64,000 bases of DNA from Brevibacillus composti. GTDB lineage: Bacteria; Bacillota; Bacilli; Brevibacillales; Brevibacillaceae. The notes under the pieces are model-generated. The model saw only the letters and a list, made by a program, of their open reading frames with translations, was not told the DNA's origin and searched no databases. Positions 1 through 7,181 of the stretch are shown one piece after another. Within the stretch, counting starts at the first letter, position 1. Each line of letters opens with the position of its first letter. The stretch covers positions 4,314,501-4,378,500 of the forward strand of contig NZ_CP066308.1 in the NCBI RefSeq assembly GCF_016406105.1, given 5' to 3'. A program made the position numbers and the translations under genes.

Positions 1-401
1 GTCAGCTCGGGCGAGAGCCAGTCGGTGATGTACGGCTCCAGAATGCTCCTGTTTTGCAGGACGCCGCCAATCTCCGGGTTGGACAACAGGACGAATTCGG
101 TGACCGGGTCGAGGCCGATGCCCTTGTATTTCTTGTTGCGGTCATGCTCATTGGTTTCAAAGGCGAGGAATTCGATATTGTCCGGCTTTTCCTTGCGCTT
201 TTTGGAAAGCGGGTCGACGGGCAGCTTGAAGCGGCGGTTCACCTGATACTTCAGGCGGAGCAGCGCGTCGATCCCCGTGCCGCCAAGGCCGATGACGAGC
301 ATCGGATTGTCGATGGTATCGACGCGGATCTTGTCACTGACAATCCCGCCGCCGAGCGATACGTCCAATTGCTGAATATGTTCTCTGACGACTGCTTTCA
401 T
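1..401 (-). CDS. Tubulin/FtsZ-like protein, partial (C-terminus beyond window)
   Basis: Only the first 133 codons are inside the window; the gene runs off the left edge. The start at 401 follows a good AGGAG site, which overlaps the stop of the VWA gene upstream, so the two form an operon. Residues about 34-50 read MLVIGLGGTGIDALLRL, the glycine-rich first nucleotide loop seen in tubulin/FtsZ-superfamily proteins, followed by a basic stretch and a strand (IEFLAFETNEHD) as in the tubulin-like PF13809 group. The diagnostic GGGTGSG loop would lie outside the window and cannot be checked. By family knowledge it is a cytosolic GTP-binding, possibly filament-forming protein. The link with VWA and membrane proteins suggests an envelope or membrane-remodelling role (inference). 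Confidence 0.72.
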   Translation of the reverse strand, partial: MKAVVREHIQQLDVSLGGGIVSDKIRVDTIDNPMLVIGLGGTGIDALLRLKYQVNRRFKLPVDPLSKKRKEKPDNIEFLAFETNEHDRNKKYKGIGLDPVTEFVLLSNPEIGGVLQNRSILEPYITDWLSPEL

Positions 402-413
402 CTTCGATCACTC

Positions 414-2207
414 CTACACGATGTAGTCTACATAGACGGACTTGTTGACGCTGGTCAGGGAAATCTTGATGCGGTCATTCTTTTTCAGCTCCCGCCCCTT
501 GCTGGCGTCCAGGACGCGGCCGGCCTTTTCCACCCGGCAGCCGGAGCGGTTTTCCAAGACGAGGGTGTCGTTTTTCCCGGGGAAAAAGAGGACCTTGTCC
601 GTCTCCTGGAACTCGGGTGCGAGCTGCAAGAGCTGATGCAGCTTCACCTTTCCTTTGAAGGCATTCAGCTTTTTATACTGCGGATGGGATTTCTCCCCGG
701 TATCCTCGTCGACGATCTCGATGGCGATCTGGCCGGTGAAGCCCTTGTTTGCCTTTTTCCAGGCGGACAGGAGAGCGAGGGCCCCAGCGGCGACGAGAAT
801 CAGGCCAGCCGTACCGATGATGACCGGCAGCCAGGGAAATGGTCTGTCGTCCTCGGCTGCGGGCGCTCCGGCGGGCGGCTGGGACGCACTTCCGCCAGCT
901 CCCTGGGAAGCGTCTATCGTCACCGGCTTCGTCTCCCGGTAAAAGCTGGTCTCCTCCGCCTTTACCTTCAGCTCGTACTGTTTGGCGTCCGGGACGGTGA
1001 AGCTGCCTTCAAAGCCGCTGCCCGTATTGGCCAGCTCCAGCTCGCTGGTCTGCTGGCTTCCCAGTTCGCGGACGATCAGCTTGGCCTTCATTTTTTTGTA
1101 GAGATCGGGGCTGACCGCTTGCTGTCCGGCCGTGACCAGCGCCGCTTTGATCGGGATGATATCCCCTTTTTTGTAAGGCTGCGCGGCAATCGGCTCCATC
1201 TCCAGCAGGACGTCGTAATTGAATATCAGGTTCATCGCGATCTTGTCCCGGTCCGCTCCTTTTACCTGCAGCTTCCACTCGCCCTGGGCCGGCTGGATCA
1301 TCTTCACCATCGTATAGGCGCGGGAGCGGGACAGCAGGATATCTGCGGACGGGATGGCCGCTTCCTTGCCGGAGGGATCGATCAGCTTCAGCTCGACTGC
1401 TTGGCCCGATGTGATCGAAATATTGGCTTCCAGCACGCTGCTGTTCGGGATGGAGAGCGGCACCTCCTGGAACTGCCCGTTTGAAGTGAAATTTTTCAAC
1501 GGAACTACCTTAACTTTTGAATGGTTGGCAAAAATTTCGCTTAAAATCTGCGGCAGCTTGTCAGCCGTGCTCGTCTCGAAAAACAGGCCGCCTGTCTCTG
1601 CGGCGATCTGCTGCAAAGGTGTCCGGTTGAGCTGGCCGTCCGCATTCAGTCCGATCGTGTAGACAGGATACCCTTTGGCTTTGGCCTTTTTGACCGCTTC
1701 GTCCAGGTCTTGGTCTGACTTCTGCTGGGTGCGTCCGGTGGCGGGATTGAGATAGTTGTTGCCGTCGGCCAAGAGTACGATGATCGGCGAGTGGGCCGGG
1801 TCATGCCCGTCCTCCAGGATTTTGATCGCCTCGCTCACCCCGACCGCGATATCGGTGTACGCTCCTTTTTGCAGGCTGTCGATGAAGGCCTTGATGTCCT
1901 TCTTGTCCTGCTCGGCATTGACGCCCATGAGCGCTTTTTCCCGCTCGATTTTATCCGTGTAGGCGACCACTCCGATTTTGTTGCCCTGTGCCGACGTCAT
2001 GTCGACGAACATCTTCATCGCTTCCAGGCTGACGCCGTTTTTATCGCTTTGGGACATGGAGTTGCTGACGTCGACGACCAGCACGGCGTCCATTTTGTCA
2101 GCCCCTGAGGCTGTCTGGGCAAAGGCTGCCGTTTCCCCGGACATGAACATTCCCAGCAGAAGAATCAGACAAAGGATGTATCGAAAGAGTGCGGGTAAAC
2201 GTATCAT
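414..2207 (-). CDS. Secreted, membrane-anchored VWA-domain protein
   Basis: 597 aa. A signal peptide (about 1-30, ending near AFAQ) leads into a von Willebrand A domain (about 38-225) with an intact MIDAS start, DVSNSMS, for divalent metal binding. Two beta-rich segments follow (about 235-430). A proline-rich linker and one transmembrane helix (about 458-482) come next. The last 110 residues are cytosolic, beta-rich and end in KSVYVDYIV; no family is assigned. This topology exposes the VWA domain outside and the tail inside, where the tubulin-like neighbour would be. GGAGG precedes the ATG at 2207. The next gene begins only 13 bp beyond the stop, so co-transcription is likely. The ligand is unknown. 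Confidence 0.82.
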   Translation of the reverse strand: MIRLPALFRYILCLILLLGMFMSGETAAFAQTASGADKMDAVLVVDVSNSMSQSDKNGVSLEAMKMFVDMTSAQGNKIGVVAYTDKIEREKALMGVNAEQDKKDIKAFIDSLQKGAYTDIAVGVSEAIKILEDGHDPAHSPIIVLLADGNNYLNPATGRTQQKSDQDLDEAVKKAKAKGYPVYTIGLNADGQLNRTPLQQIAAETGGLFFETSTADKLPQILSEIFANHSKVKVVPLKNFTSNGQFQEVPLSIPNSSVLEANISITSGQAVELKLIDPSGKEAAIPSADILLSRSRAYTMVKMIQPAQGEWKLQVKGADRDKIAMNLIFNYDVLLEMEPIAAQPYKKGDIIPIKAALVTAGQQAVSPDLYKKMKAKLIVRELGSQQTSELELANTGSGFEGSFTVPDAKQYELKVKAEETSFYRETKPVTIDASQGAGGSASQPPAGAPAAEDDRPFPWLPVIIGTAGLILVAAGALALLSAWKKANKGFTGQIAIEIVDEDTGEKSHPQYKKLNAFKGKVKLHQLLQLAPEFQETDKVLFFPGKNDTLVLENRSGCRVEKAGRVLDASKGRELKKNDRIKISLTSVNKSVYVDYIV

Positions 2208-2417
2208 CTGTAAGAACCTCCGCTTATGTAGATATTTGTCGAATCGAATAGGTCGGAAGATTTTGAATGAATTGCAAACAAACCAAGATTATAACAATAT
2301 TACCATTATATTCTACATGAATCTGAAACAAAAAGAATCTCGCGGCCTCTATAACGTAATACGGGCCACTTCTTTTTTTGTTACATCATCCGACAAACCA
2401 AGTGGGGAGAATGCTCG

Positions 2418-2621
2418 ATGCTCACGTACTATATCCTTGCCGTAGTCCTGCTGATGCTGGTGATTCGGTACATCGTCCTTTTGATGCACAAGCGGCGAAA
2501 TGTGTCGGAGATGGAGATTGATCGGCAGTTACTTACTTTGCTACACGACGAGAGGGGTTCCAATGAGAAAAAAGCTGGGAGTCCAGTTCCGCAAAAGTCC
2601 GAAAACGACGTACGCCTTTGA
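2418..2621 (+). CDS. Small single-pass membrane protein (67 aa)
   Basis: Begins divergently from the VWA gene with TGGGGAGA nine bases ahead of the ATG. Residues about 4-24 (YYILAVVLLMLVIRYIVLLM) form a transmembrane helix followed by a basic KRR stop-transfer signal and a short charged cytosolic tail. The 3' end overlaps the next gene by 59 bp in another frame, which is unusual and lowers confidence. If real, it is the first gene of the divergent membrane-protein set. No family is recognised; it may be a small assembly or regulatory subunit. Confidence 0.5.
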   Translation: MLTYYILAVVLLMLVIRYIVLLMHKRRNVSEMEIDRQLLTLLHDERGSNEKKAGSPVPQKSENDVRL

Positions 2622-3501
2622 ACGCTTGCGCTGCTGCAAGCACTGCCACTCGTATACCGTGCTCTGGCATGAGGAGTGCGATGTCTGCGGCAAAAGCCGC
2701 TTTCTCACCCTGCGTCAGCTCTCCCATGTCCTGACCCGCCACCGCTTTCAGAAACAACTGCTGATCCTGGGGCTGCTGATCTGTGTCGCGATCCTCAGTG
2801 CTGATACAGTCAGACAGCTGGCGGCCGCAGGGATCGGGGGCGTGCTGGCCCTCCTGGTCGCTCTATGGATGCAAAAAAAGTATGGCGTCTATGAGAGAAA
2901 CGGCCATTTTCTGCGCTTCCTCCCCAGGGAAGCAGACAAGATCAAAAACGGGCTGAAGCGAAATGCCGTCGAGGTAAACGAGGATGTGGAGGCGGAGCGG
3001 TACAAGGAGGCCTACGAAAAAATGCGGGAAGTGGGCTTCCTACTCGATTCCGATTCGGTCAAGCAGTGTCAAATCATGCTGCTGGGCCGCTTCGTTCTGC
3101 GCAAGGATATGGAGCTGGAGCTGGCTTCGCTCATCCCCTCCCGCTACGACCGGGATTTCGTGGAGTATCTGCATGACGTGCTGAAGGTGCAGCCCTGGCT
3201 CTTGAAGAAAGCGGTGATCGACTACGTCATCCGCTACAAGGGAAATATCCTGCTGGAGGAAGACGGTCAGCGGGTGCTGGGCCTGGTGGCGGGCTGCGCC
3301 CTGCGCATGAAGTCGTACGTGGTGCAATACCAGGAGTTTATCCGGGAGTCGCTGGAGTACATGCCCCGCGAGCGTCTGCTCCGCCTCGCCCAGCTGCTGA
3401 AGGCCCATCCCCAAGAGGATTGGGCTCCTCTCTATGAAGCTGCGGCGAGACTGATCGAGACCCGCTACTCGTTCGATCCCGAGTTCAAAGGCGTGCTGTG
3501 A
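2563..3501 (+). CDS. Zinc-ribbon membrane protein of unknown function
   Basis: 312 aa from the ATG at 2563, chosen because GAGAGGGG lies just upstream; an earlier in-frame ATG at 2500 has no such site. An N-terminal cytosolic segment carries a four-cysteine cluster (CCKHC at about 23-27, then CDVCG), typical of a zinc ribbon. Two hydrophobic helices follow (about 65-85 and 87-105). The remaining 200 residues are alpha-helical and charged, and resemble no enzyme I recognise. The stop overlaps the translation signal of the following SH3-tailed gene, so the two are translationally coupled. Together with the VWA and tubulin-like genes on the other side of the shared promoter region it probably forms one functional locus. 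Confidence 0.8.
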   Translation: MRKKLGVQFRKSPKTTYAFERLRCCKHCHSYTVLWHEECDVCGKSRFLTLRQLSHVLTRHRFQKQLLILGLLICVAILSADTVRQLAAAGIGGVLALLVALWMQKKYGVYERNGHFLRFLPREADKIKNGLKRNAVEVNEDVEAERYKEAYEKMREVGFLLDSDSVKQCQIMLLGRFVLRKDMELELASLIPSRYDRDFVEYLHDVLKVQPWLLKKAVIDYVIRYKGNILLEEDGQRVLGLVAGCALRMKSYVVQYQEFIRESLEYMPRERLLRLAQLLKAHPQEDWAPLYEAAARLIETRYSFDPEFKGVL

Positions 3502-3515
3502 AGGAGTATGGTGGC

Positions 3516-5357
3516 ATGATTGTCTCTTCCTATCGAAAATCTCTCTGGGTGCTGCGCGTCCTTTCTCTGGTATTTGCGATTGCGATGGCCGCCGTCTTCT
3601 GGAAACTGGGCCAGACGGTGCACAAGATCAGCTTGTATGACCGGGCGCTGGCCTATTACCGGGACGACAACCTGCTGCTGGCCGAAGAGACCTTTTCCCG
3701 CGCGGAGGCGATCTCTGCCATCCGCTATGGGGACGAGGCATGGAGCCGCTCCATGTCTGCCCTGACCGCCATACGCGCGGAGCTGGAGTCCTTAGCGGCT
3801 CAGGCCGAGGCTGCCAGCCGGGAACAGGATCATGCCCGGATGCTGGCCGTCTATGAGCGCTATCGCACGCTGGCGGGGAACTATGCTTCGCCCGGCGGTC
3901 TCGATGCCTCTTTCTTCCGGCAGACCGCCCAACGGCTCGCGCTGGGGAAACAGGTAGACGATTATTTTCAGCGGGCAAAGGACGGGGCGAGGCGGACACT
4001 TGAAACCAATCTGGCGCAAAAGAGTTTTCACGACGACAGCTTTGTCGCCACGCTCGTCCTGATCCCGGACGAATACTATGGAGGGGCAGAGAACAAACAG
4101 CGGGAATTGTCCCGTCTCTTGCGCGCATACGACCGGGAGAAATTTCGCGCTTCTACCGGCACGGGAACGTTTTCCGAAGTCGTCGCCCGCACGGCCGACA
4201 GCCTACGCGCCTATAAGCGGCTGAACATCGAAGCCGAATGGCTGACCAGCCTTTTGGAAAGCTACGCGGAAAAAGAAATCCGCACAGCCGTCAGACAAGA
4301 CGACCTGGCTGTTTTCATCGCGCTCGCCAAGGCCTATCGGCAGATCGAGGATGTGCTTCCTCCTGAGTCGGAAGCGCTGGACGAGATCGAAAGCCACCTG
4401 CAAGCCCGGTTGCGCCAGGCGGAACGGTACATCGCCGCCGGCCAGTATGAAAAGGCGATCGAACTGTACCGGCAGATCGGCCCGCTCCAGAATACTTCCG
4501 CGCTGATTGCCGAAGCGGAAAGCCGCTGGAGCGAGGATGACCCCGCCCGCTTGCTGGCGGAAAAACATCCGGACAACACCTACCGATTCGTTTTGACCGG
4601 AGAACAGCTCTGGGGTACGCAGGCTTACGCCATCGGATTGACCCAGGGCGATCAGCCCGAGCTGCATCTCGCCGGCAAAATGGCGGACGGCACCGTCGTC
4701 TACCTGGAGCGAGCGGTCAGCTCCGGCCGCAAGCCGCTCCGGCTCACTCTCTCCGACATCCGAGGCATCAAAAAAGCCCCGCTGATACTGCTGGAGGCAG
4801 AGGGGACGGAGCGCACGCATCTGTATTCGGGATTCATTCCGGACATGGAACGATCCTCACTCGTCAAAGGATTCGAGATCGAGGCGGAAGGGTTTCAAGC
4901 CGAGAATCCGGAGGAGATCATCCTCACGCATCCGACTGGAGACGGGGAAAATGAGGTCGCCTCGTTCCGGCTGGAGGAAAAGGGGCTCGTCTACACGGGA
5001 AAAATAGAGGACTATCTGCCGGAAGGGGCAGACGAGGCGGATACGCCTCCAGTTGAGGAAGGCATGGAGACTCCGGGTGGAGCGCCCCCGGATATTGCAC
5101 CCCCGACTGCGACGGAGCGCACGGGGCAGGATCAACACCGGGAGCCGGGTACGGGTACACATCAGGAAGAATCGGGAGCGCCGCCCGACATCGCTGGCGC
5201 AGCGGCCCCGATCACGCTCTACGCGGGACCGGGCGAGCAGTACGGACAGATCGGGGATCTCCCCGCAAAGGCAGCCGTCGAGGTGCTGGCGGAGGCGGAC
5301 GGGTGGTATCAGATCTCCTACCAAGGCAAGAAGGGCTGGATCAATCGGATGCCGTAG
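3516..5357 (+). CDS. Membrane-anchored helical-repeat protein with C-terminal SH3 domain
   Basis: 613 aa. The ATG at 3516 follows AAGGAG by nine bases; the in-frame GTG at 3498 has no ribosome site. A single N-terminal transmembrane helix (about 11-33) anchors a largely extracellular protein. Helical, TPR-like segments (about 35-345, for example AERYIAAGQYEKAIELYRQI) are followed by a beta-rich region, then a low-complexity acidic and proline-rich linker (about 490-560). A bacterial SH3 domain closes the protein (LYAGPGEQYGQIGDLPAK to GKKGWINRMP). SH3b domains commonly bind peptidoglycan or metals, so wall attachment is likely. The 3' end overlaps convergent recQ by 17 bp. It forms an operon with the zinc-ribbon membrane protein. 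Confidence 0.82.
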   Translation: MIVSSYRKSLWVLRVLSLVFAIAMAAVFWKLGQTVHKISLYDRALAYYRDDNLLLAEETFSRAEAISAIRYGDEAWSRSMSALTAIRAELESLAAQAEAASREQDHARMLAVYERYRTLAGNYASPGGLDASFFRQTAQRLALGKQVDDYFQRAKDGARRTLETNLAQKSFHDDSFVATLVLIPDEYYGGAENKQRELSRLLRAYDREKFRASTGTGTFSEVVARTADSLRAYKRLNIEAEWLTSLLESYAEKEIRTAVRQDDLAVFIALAKAYRQIEDVLPPESEALDEIESHLQARLRQAERYIAAGQYEKAIELYRQIGPLQNTSALIAEAESRWSEDDPARLLAEKHPDNTYRFVLTGEQLWGTQAYAIGLTQGDQPELHLAGKMADGTVVYLERAVSSGRKPLRLTLSDIRGIKKAPLILLEAEGTERTHLYSGFIPDMERSSLVKGFEIEAEGFQAENPEEIILTHPTGDGENEVASFRLEEKGLVYTGKIEDYLPEGADEADTPPVEEGMETPGGAPPDIAPPTATERTGQDQHREPGTGTHQEESGAPPDIAGAAAPITLYAGPGEQYGQIGDLPAKAAVEVLAEADGWYQISYQGKKGWINRMP

Positions 5358-7143
5358 CGGCCCCTTCTTTCTTCTGCAGGTATTCCTGCACGCAAGCGAG
5401 AAAATAGGATCCGTATTTCTCAAACTTGGCCGCCCCGATCCCTTTGATCGTCAACATGGTTTCCTTGTCTGTCGGGCATATCTGGCTCAGCTCTTTGAGC
5501 GTGCTGTCGTGGAAGATGACATACGGCGGCACGCCTTCTTTTTGCGACAGCTCTTTGCGCAGCTGTCTCAGCCGCTCGAACAGCTCGTCATCCTCCTCCC
5601 GCTTGATTGGCCGGATCAGCACCTTTTGCCATACCTGCTCCTCCCCTTTTAATACAGGGAGTGCCCGGTCCCCCAGCGCGAGGATCGGGTATTTGTTTTC
5701 GGTGACCCGCAGATAGCCCTCGGCGATAAACAGCTCGATCAAATCGACAATCTGTTTTTCGGTGTAATCGCTCATCAGACCGTACGTGGGCAGCTTGTCA
5801 AAGCCGAATTCCAGCACCTTTTTATTGCGGGAGCCTTTCAGCACCTGAGCGACCAGCGAGGCTCCGTAGCGCTCCCGCATCCTTTTGACGCAGGAGAAGA
5901 CCTTTTGCGCCTCCAGGGTGATATCAGCCAGCTCCGCTTCATTGGTGCAATTGCCGCAGCGGCCGCACTCCCCGGCGGCGTGGTCCCCAAAATACTGCAC
6001 GATATACTGCTGCAGGCAGCGCGGTGTCCGGCAGTAATCGATCATCGCGTACAGCTTTTTGTACTCATGCTCCCGGCGCTCGGCTCCCTGCTGGTTCTGC
6101 TCGATAAAAAACATCTGGGTCTGGATATCCTGCGAATGAAACAGCAGGATGCACTCGCTCGGCTCCCCGTCGCGTCCGGCCCGTCCCGCTTCCTGGTAAT
6201 AGGCTTCCAGATTTTTTGGGAGGCTGTAGTGAATCACGTAGCGGACGTTGGACTTGTCGATGCCCATCCCGAACGCATTGGTCGCAAACATCACGCGGGC
6301 ATCGTCATAGAGAAAGGCCTCCTGATTGCGCGCCCGCTCCGCCTCCGACAGCCCGGCATGGTAGCGGGTGACGGAAAAGCCCCGCTCCTGAAAGTAATCG
6401 TACAAGGCATCCACGTCTTTTCGCGTAGCGGCGTAGACGATGCCCGCCTGCTCGCGGCGCGCCTCCAGATAGTCGCGGATAAACCGGCGCCTGTCCTCCC
6501 CTTTGCGGACGGAGAGATGAAGATTATCCCGGCCGAAGCCGCTGATGTAGATGCGCTCGTCCTGCAGGCTGAGCAGACGCTGAATATCTGCTGTGACCTC
6601 CGGTGTGGCGGTGGCGGTCAGGGCCGCGATGACAGGCCGCTTTGGCAGGGATTGGATGAACCGGGAGATGGCCAGATAGCTGGGACGGAAATCATGCCCC
6701 CACTGCGAGACGCAATGTGCCTCGTCGACGGCTACCATCGCGATAGGCAGCTCGCTCACGAGCGCCATAAAACTGTCCGTCTCCAGCCGCTCCGGGGCGA
6801 CATAGAGCAGCTTGTACACCCCTTCGCGGGCTTTTCTCATCCGCTCCCGCACCTCGGCGGCATCCAGCGTGCTATTGATCTCGGCGGCAGCGATCCCGGC
6901 GCTGGCCAGCGCATCCACCTGGTCCTTCATCAAGGAAATCAAGGGAGAAATGACTATCGTGACGCCGTCGAACAAAAGGGCGGGAATCTGGTAGCAGATC
7001 GACTTTCCGCCCCCGGTCGGCATGATGCCGAGCGTGTCGCATCCGGACAACAGGCTCTTCACGATTGTTTGTTGTCCAGGCCGAAAACTGGTGTAGCCAA
7101 AGTATGTCCGCAGCTTCTCCTCCGCTTTCTGCAACAATCCCAT
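5341..7143 (-). CDS. recQ: ATP-dependent DNA helicase RecQ
   Basis: 600 aa, normal for RecQ. Helicase motifs are in order: Q-motif region FRPGQ, Walker A TGGGKS (about 45-50), DEAH-type box DEAHC, motif III TATAT, and motif VI QEAGRAGRDGE. The zinc-binding subdomain has cysteines in CRTPRCLQQY and CGRCGNC. A winged-helix RQC region and an HRDC domain (from about 515) follow. RecQ unwinds 3'-5' at stalled forks and recombination intermediates. The start at 7143 (MGLLQKAEEKL) matches the family and has GGAAGG close upstream; an upstream in-frame ATG at 7170 lacks any site. The 3' end overlaps the convergent SH3-protein gene by 17 bp without a separate terminator. Confidence 0.96.
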   Translation of the reverse strand: MGLLQKAEEKLRTYFGYTSFRPGQQTIVKSLLSGCDTLGIMPTGGGKSICYQIPALLFDGVTIVISPLISLMKDQVDALASAGIAAAEINSTLDAAEVRERMRKAREGVYKLLYVAPERLETDSFMALVSELPIAMVAVDEAHCVSQWGHDFRPSYLAISRFIQSLPKRPVIAALTATATPEVTADIQRLLSLQDERIYISGFGRDNLHLSVRKGEDRRRFIRDYLEARREQAGIVYAATRKDVDALYDYFQERGFSVTRYHAGLSEAERARNQEAFLYDDARVMFATNAFGMGIDKSNVRYVIHYSLPKNLEAYYQEAGRAGRDGEPSECILLFHSQDIQTQMFFIEQNQQGAERREHEYKKLYAMIDYCRTPRCLQQYIVQYFGDHAAGECGRCGNCTNEAELADITLEAQKVFSCVKRMRERYGASLVAQVLKGSRNKKVLEFGFDKLPTYGLMSDYTEKQIVDLIELFIAEGYLRVTENKYPILALGDRALPVLKGEEQVWQKVLIRPIKREEDDELFERLRQLRKELSQKEGVPPYVIFHDSTLKELSQICPTDKETMLTIKGIGAAKFEKYGSYFLACVQEYLQKKEGAATASD

Positions 7144-7181
7144 CACCTTCCATCCCGTGATTCTGGTCAAAGCATTCGCGT

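Follow-up and report, generated by a model that had tools for sequence, protein, structure and literature searches.

A fixed-order gene locus in Brevibacillus composti joins an intact and a predicted loop-less tubulin to VWA proteins, a DO-GTPase and GAP1

Does a bacterial locus that combines tubulin-like proteins, von Willebrand factor A (VWA) proteins and a GTPase encode a fixed, inherited machine or a mobile conflict system? The question is raised by a locus of about 10 genes in Brevibacillus composti, which extends into the left end of the stretch of DNA analysed here (the window: 64,000 nucleotides, bases 4314501-4378500 of the main contig in a genome of 4.47 Mb) and, counted in window coordinates, runs from about -11424 to 5357. 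For such systems the literature offers both membrane remodelling and biological conflict as roles. The counts reported here inform the choice between the two for one lineage, in which they favor the fixed, inherited machine. The core of the locus is a minus-strand run of seven genes, in the order VWA-1, TUB1, TUB2, VWA-2, a 211-aa protein, DO-GTPase and GAP1, which is operon-like and may be transcribed as a unit. A divergent plus-strand arm encodes two membrane proteins, one small and one with a zinc ribbon, followed by a TPR-SH3 protein.

An earlier note on this DNA had described a tubulin/FtsZ-like gene coupled to a VWA gene and divergent from genes for zinc-ribbon and SH3 proteins. All of the elements it named are present by open reading frame, Pfam and hydropathy analysis: the start of TUB1, VWA-1, the zinc-ribbon protein and the SH3 protein. 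Its view that these five genes form a set with all parts present did not survive extension of the sequence to the left, where the same strand encodes proteins of 1129 (TUB1), 810, 427, 211, 422 and 916 aa, in that order. The last five of these, TUB2, VWA-2, the 211-aa protein, DO-GTPase and GAP1, lie wholly outside the window, so that the second tubulin, the second VWA protein, the DO-GTPase and GAP1 had all been missed. Comparisons were made with 48 loci fetched from relatives, one of which (L051) stands at a contig end, carries DO-GTPase and GAP1 only, and was omitted from the VWA and tubulin counts.

TUB1 is the intact member of the tubulin pair. The gene occupies positions 1-401 of the minus strand and continues to -2988, forming a complete 1129-aa open reading frame in the genome, and its product matches the Tubulin_2 (FtsZl1) family PF13809 with 262.7 bits. 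The T1 loop, GLGGTG, is found inside the window and is conserved in relatives, and the GTP loop that the earlier note had expected beyond the window edge is indeed there, as an intact T4 loop GGTGSG (residues 189-194) just left of that edge. The motif GG[TS]G[ST]G occurs in 48/48 TUB1 orthologues and in 0/48 TUB2 proteins, and the shorter GG[TS]G is found within the first 250 residues of 0/48 TUB2 sequences. Hydropathy analysis detected one marginal stretch in TUB1, within the GTPase domain, and no hydrophobic stretch in TUB2. A sequence search for TUB1 relatives of known structure returned one match at chance level (E 0.71).

How TUB2 relates to TUB1 was approached by profile comparison and structure prediction. 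TUB2 gives a partial match to PF13809 that is under the cut-off (22.5 bits, E 7.7e-5, profile positions 226-353). Comparison of TUB2 with TUB1 by hhalign gave E 8e-5 and a probability of 61%, and the N-terminal halves alone gave E 4.6e-4 and 33%, which are modest statistics; in the profile alignment the TUB1 T1 loop stands opposite a GD-S-type segment of TUB2, and the T4 loop region opposite RADDPA. No homology was detected by hhalign between the C-terminal parts (E 0.42), and paralogy by sequence is therefore limited to the N-terminal half. The best AlphaFold model of TUB2 (33 sequences; the structure alignments used 30-32 of the 48 relatives plus the window protein) has a mean pLDDT of 75 and a pTM of 0.62. 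A second structure aligner placed BtubB at the top (Z 17.6, 304 residues, rmsd 4.2) with the next rows tied within 1, and all 50 listed structure matches are titled tubulin, BtubAB, CetZ or tubulin complexes. TUB2 thus models as a tubulin-fold protein without GTP loops, the loop loss being seen in the sequences and the fold in the model.

About 350 residues of TUB2 are predicted to be helical. The structure alignments span model residues ~30 to ~810, with 300-330 residues aligned, and past residue 728 the strands and helices are ordered much as in the last part of the tubulin fold, although residues 710-770 are poorly predicted. Since the alignments reach ~810 and the order past residue 728 is tubulin-like, we suggest that the long helical part, a putative coiled coil, may interrupt the tubulin fold as an insert between H10- and S9-like elements, rather than being a C-terminal addition. 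A parallel for such a pair is BtubA/BtubB of Prosthecobacter, where tubulin genes also lie adjacent to each other and where BtubB is the protein whose structure ranks first, by a narrow margin, against the TUB2 model. BtubA and BtubB both keep their GTP loops, whereas TUB2 has none and carries the ~350 predicted helical residues.

Gene order proved to be constant. The nine larger genes have the same order and orientation in 28/28 fetched loci of the window's family (which we take to be Brevibacillaceae, as in GTDB; NCBI taxonomy places Brevibacillus under Paenibacillaceae), and the other 20 loci keep that order wherever the stretch permits. Among named records (the best 80 of 287 relatives), the order of the seven-gene run is unchanged in 80/80 loci, at least 8 of which come from genomes also in the other sample; the closest of these relatives is Brevibacillus borstelensis, with 94% identity in TUB1. 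The linkage of these genes in relatives, on which the earlier note had depended, is therefore seen in these loci. Some genes of three fetched loci (L045, L049, L050) were missed in the open reading frame view and recovered by tblastn; in L050 a zinc-ribbon match was seen near the end of the stretch, and the open reading frames of the zinc-ribbon and SH3 proteins were not recovered.

The distribution of the locus resembles that of an inherited trait. Tubulin_2 is found in 23/26 genomes of the genus, the window genome counted, and the three members without it (G003, G013, G025) are the same three that are without GAP1-N2, a pattern expected of joint loss. GAP1-N2 is present in 29/39 genomes of the order, in 61/398 genomes sampled across the class (8/145 genera), and in 66/75 genomes from a further genus, sampled around G173. 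Almost every carrier has a single locus; the exceptions are a partial extra Tubulin_2 match in G020, a GAP1 that is broken in G442 and, in G009, a fragment scoring under the cut-off. Divergence of the locus was compared with that of marker genes in 30 of the 49 genomes (rpoB, FtsZ and eight locus genes n=30, SH3 n=27; frames picked by blastp), all 30 of which encode a separate FtsZ. Pairwise distances of the nine components correlate with those of rpoB at rho 0.82-0.90, against 0.82 for FtsZ, the FtsZ and rpoB sequences being stop-to-stop frames such that FtsZ identities contain some extension. Given the fixed order, the single copies and the tracking of rpoB, variation of the locus consists mainly of sequence change and loss of the SH3 gene, not exchange of parts. 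The locus behaves as vertically inherited, and the gene content of the seven-gene run is fixed.

The GTPase module stands at the far end of the run. Its 422-aa protein matches both DO-GTPase1 (PF19975, 33.8 bits) and DO-GTPase2 (PF19993, 32.9 bits) above cut-off, and its Walker A motif, its Walker B motif (FFDVAGEG) and four zinc-type cysteines are invariant or nearly so (n=49). The 916-aa GAP1 protein matches GAP1-N2 (PF20013, 156.5 bits) and GAP1-M (PF20014, 93.4 bits), and has a hydrophobic stretch at residues 750-768 followed by a Gly/Thr-rich tail. The 211-aa protein (L003:8605-9240) stands between VWA-2 and DO-GTPase in 80/80 named loci and has many invariant positions; the window copy has no Pfam match, 31 members have no consistent one, and the only PDB match is at chance level (E 0.041). 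Neither it nor the DO-GTPase has a hydrophobic stretch by hydropathy. The NCBIfam scan of the locus proteins gave nothing above curated cut-off.

The two VWA proteins would place the locus at the membrane. VWA-1 (414-2207, minus strand; PF00092, E 1.9e-17) has a signal-like hydrophobic stretch near its N-terminus (residues 4-22), a VWA domain, a beta-rich second domain, one transmembrane-type stretch at 462-480 and a C-terminal domain of ~112 residues that is probably inside the cell. This agrees with the topology put forward in the earlier note (secreted VWA, one transmembrane helix, cytosolic tail), the sidedness of this and all other locus proteins being predicted from hydropathy. The metal-ion-dependent adhesion site (MIDAS) residues are present in 48/48 VWA-1 sequences, and the VWA region of the AlphaFold model of VWA-1 matches at Z 22.5. 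The mean share of the commonest residue is 0.80 for the VWA domain, 0.77 for the C-terminal domain and 0.71 for the second ectodomain; the conservation of the C-terminal domain, nearly that of the VWA domain, suggests a cytoplasmic binding partner. An FHA-like fold for the tail (the last 112-113 residues) found no support in Pfam or PDB sequence searches, and the fold search was dominated by the VWA domain. Among the matches listed, the second domain has a weak MG2 match in 26/31 members. VWA-2 has a VWA domain by Pfam and six hydrophobic stretches, which would make it a multi-pass protein, and its MIDAS residues are kept in 48 sequences, the gap at two positions coming only from the L033 fragment (214 aa).

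Loci of this kind have been described before. Makarova and Koonin reported in 2010 that FtsZl1 occurs with VWA proteins, a GTPase and sometimes OmpA, and Brevibacillus brevis is named in an alignment legend in the portion of that paper available to us (PMC2875224); together with the Tubulin_2 score of TUB1, this upholds the FtsZ-like/VWA pairing and the link to that work made in the earlier note. The window locus shares with the FtsZl1 system a Tubulin_2 member that scores over the cut-off and has T1 and T4 loops, and a VWA protein with intact MIDAS encoded in one gene run with a P-loop GTPase in all 80 loci. It differs in that no OmpA-type protein is among its ten proteins by Pfam scan, and in having the predicted degenerate second tubulin, GAP1 and the divergent zinc-ribbon/SH3 arm, none of which is mentioned in the available portion. 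Kaur et al. in 2020 described a form from Firmicutes in which two tubulin genes accompany two VWA proteins, a DO-GTPase and GAP1-N2, and proposed a conflict role (PMC7159879, available portion), an assignment that the earlier note overlooked; its interpretation is on that account, and for its incomplete gene set, only partly supported, while the observation itself is confirmed. The likeness to the Firmicutes theme includes a pair of tubulin-type genes whose products have long helical parts, a pair of VWA proteins of which one is multi-pass, and a zinc-ribbon DO-GTPase with a conserved Glu near Walker B, followed by GAP1-N2/GAP1-M with a polar tail.

The same theme, as given in that portion, also lists GAP1-C, a YtkA-bearing VWA protein and a component with FNIII repeats (PMC7159879). 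GAP1-C was not among the Pfam matches of the window GAP1 at E 0.1 (the window protein alone was scanned), YtkA was absent from those of the window VWA-1 (for other members, 25 of 56 families were covered), and an FNIII identity of the 211-aa protein was unsupported by Pfam (31 members) or by PDB sequence search. That portion of the source mentions neither the divergent arm nor the promoter, nor that the second tubulin has lost its GTP loops, and the invariant content and vertical-type inheritance of the window locus differ from the pattern of a conflict system. A 2023 study of FtsZ/tubulin evolution left Tubulin_2 aside as divergent, according to the text available (PMC9871819). The kind of locus is thus already in print, and what is added here is the loop loss of TUB2, the counts of gene order, the divergent arm and a promoter-like motif.

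This motif, TGTAAC-N16-CGTATT, resembles a promoter for an extracytoplasmic function (ECF) sigma factor and faces VWA-1 on the minus strand (2385-2358). It is the sole match in the window, and none was found in 100 shuffles. The form TG[TC]AAC-N16/17-CGTA[TA][TA] is present upstream of VWA-1 in 29/29 sequences of the window's family, related rather than independent sequences in which the spacer length varies and both ends are constant, compared with 3/5800 shuffled regions; each of the 28 loci fetched from that family has it exactly once. A conserved TCGACA block (the region of 2390-2395 in the window) lies directly beside the ECF-like -35 element in other genomes of the family and lines up in most sequences of a 16-member subset. 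Neither sigma-70 consensus promoters nor terminators were found in 2100-2600. The SigW consensus is a TGAAAC -35 element and a CGTA-type -10 element with a spacing of 16-17, and the locus motif matches its -10 and spacing, the -35 element (TGTAAC or TGCAAC) differing by one base.

Genome-wide, TGTAAC-N16/17-CGTATT has 2 sites, compared with 0 for the reversed control, and TGWAAC-N16/17-CGTATW has 12 compared with 2. One of the twelve is the locus itself, one (L124) has no credible downstream gene, and the genes after the other 10 were run against Pfam. Besides the locus, nine of the twelve precede a gene with a Pfam domain, encoding SigW, Spo0M, TerB, EcsC, YbjQ, DUF2500, SPFH, NfeD and DUF817 proteins; the SigW assignment comes from NCBIfam (285 bits, cut-off 209), and YqeZ and YqfA are NfeD and SPFH proteins. 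In Bacillus subtilis, SigW controls sigW, spo0M and yqeZ-yqfA, core SigW genes, and is induced by antibiotics, alkali and salt, as far as the available portion of the source relates (PMC3498285). The twelve sites (L113-L124), with the nine beyond the locus, sketch a likely SigW-type regulon of Brevibacillus.

What might such a machine do? The reading to which we would give close to an even chance, though not quite that, is a GTP-driven trans-envelope scaffold that connects cytoplasmic tubulins with VWA and SH3 parts facing the wall and is probably induced when the envelope is under stress. TUB1, with its intact GTP loops, would assemble inside the cell together with the loop-less TUB2 as a presumed partner, and the DO-GTPase and GAP1 could act as the switch. 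Single-pass VWA-1 and multi-pass VWA-2 would tie the scaffold to the exterior, where the VWA metal-ion adhesion sites and the SH3 protein may touch the wall or ligands at the surface. The ECF-sigma-like promoter of the window's family would switch on the operon, with envelope stress as the simplest trigger, after which the scaffold would brace or reshape the membrane against the wall. A bolder version, in which an active/degenerate tubulin pair with heterodimer-like logic forms a GTP-gated scaffold wired to VWA adhesion and induced by an envelope-stress sigma factor, so as to be a bacterial counterpart of the integrin-to-cytoskeleton link, is by analogy conceivable and in our judgment distinctly doubtful. 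The conserved ECF-type promoter-like motif, which hints at inducing conditions, and the intact/degenerate tubulin pair, which lends itself to reconstitution, offer handles for laboratory work.

Several observations weigh against the envelope scaffold. The five TUB2 models range from 62 to 75 in pLDDT; a Foldseek search of the TUB2 model against the PDB gave no match at E 0.001 (best 0.021, a microtubule entry), and after rows 1-8, all tubulin, CetZ or TubZ, unrelated folds appear from rank 9. The locus is absent from 3/26 and 9/75 genomes of the two genera and is therefore dispensable, and inside the window's family its components follow rpoB more loosely (rho 0.63-0.85) than FtsZ does (0.95). 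The promoter motif was found in 1/19 loci outside the family, so control may be lineage-specific, and since its -35 element is TGTAAC where the SigW gene itself is preceded by TGAAAC, the locus has an ECF-type promoter-like motif for which SigW is only a candidate reader. No experiment on the FtsZl1/DO-GTPase tubulin system or on a member of the locus was found in searches of the open-licence literature.

The published alternative is biological conflict, with DO-GTPase and GAP1 setting a threshold in anti-phage or anti-invader defense and the tubulins assembling as effectors to contain infected cells or kill them. The gene set fits that theme (PMC7159879, available portion), an envelope-stress promoter is also compatible with a response to antimicrobial attack, and three components evolve fast: outside the family, the median identity to the window's own copy is 0.30 for GAP1, 0.32 for the zinc-ribbon protein and 0.22 for SH3, compared with 0.70 for the slow TUB1 and DO-GTPase. 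Conflict systems are marked by mobile neighborhoods and variable effectors, and the Bacilli loci examined display neither, the seven genes never being swapped in 80 loci, nearly always in single copy and tracking rpoB. The 50,697 phage records searched contain no match to TUB1, the 72,556 plasmid records contain three remote ones to TUB1 (25-27% identity) and two to DO-GTPase (30-31%), and the ten locus proteins gave weak matches alone to PADLOC defense models, the best being LmuB (E 0.0011) in the helical region of TUB2. We therefore rank the conflict assignment lower, and regard a defensive role as possible and rather unlikely.

A morphogenetic or sporulation machine under Spo0A, remodelling sporangium membranes or controlling cell shape, would draw on the fact that Brevibacillus and Paenibacillus form spores, and on the sequence TGTCGAA (2237-2243, plus strand), which resembles a Spo0A box. 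Such TGNCGAA boxes are found in the intergenic region of at least 22 loci of the window's family, the TCGACA block is shared by most of the 16-member subset, and the idea agrees with the 2010 membrane-remodelling proposal. The candidate box is just 7 bases long, and outside the family it was found in 3/19 loci. Corynebacterium glutamicum, which is not a spore former, is positive for Tubulin_2 and GAP1-N2, whereas the spore former Bacillus subtilis, one of 14 control genomes, is negative for both, and most genomes sampled across the class are without GAP1-N2 (61/398 positive); we consider this role unlikely. That the genes are mere neighbors with separate jobs, the divergent pair being unrelated to the operon, would suit the separate transcription that the two arms need and the absence of a detected SH3 gene in 24/80 named loci. 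The zinc-ribbon gene, in contrast, accompanies 79/80, always in the same place and orientation, which makes mere neighborhood very unlikely. Of the company that the earlier note had assigned to the tubulin-VWA genes, the zinc-ribbon gene is thus nearly constant, and the SH3 gene is less steady (56/80).

The divergent arm begins with a 67-aa protein (2418-2621, plus strand) that has one hydrophobic stretch (residues 5-23) and whose gene overlaps the zinc-ribbon gene at its 3' end. A small open reading frame with a hydrophobic stretch was counted just before the zinc-ribbon gene in 40/46 relatives' loci, under a criterion that permitted less overlap with the next gene than the window copy has. 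The zinc-ribbon protein (2563-3501, plus strand) has hydrophobic stretches at 65-83 and 85-103 and a conserved C-terminal part, and retains four cysteines in at least 90% of 31 sequences. The SH3_3 protein (about 3516-5357, plus strand; PF08239, E 8.1e-11) has weak TPR matches and a hydrophobic stretch at residues 10-28, which would anchor it in the membrane, probably facing the wall. Its gene was not found by tblastn in eight fetched loci (L039, L041, L043, L046, L047, L050, L051, L052); five of these (L039, L041, L046, L047, L052) belong to one genus (g33) of another family, which has kept the seven-gene run and the zinc-ribbon gene.

Immediately to the right, a recQ-like gene at 5341-7170 runs convergently into the SH3 gene and overlaps its end. 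The best relative of the recQ-like gene is some 40-70 kb distant from the locus in three genomes (G001, G020, G029), and a relative is also found in G013 and G025, genomes without the locus.

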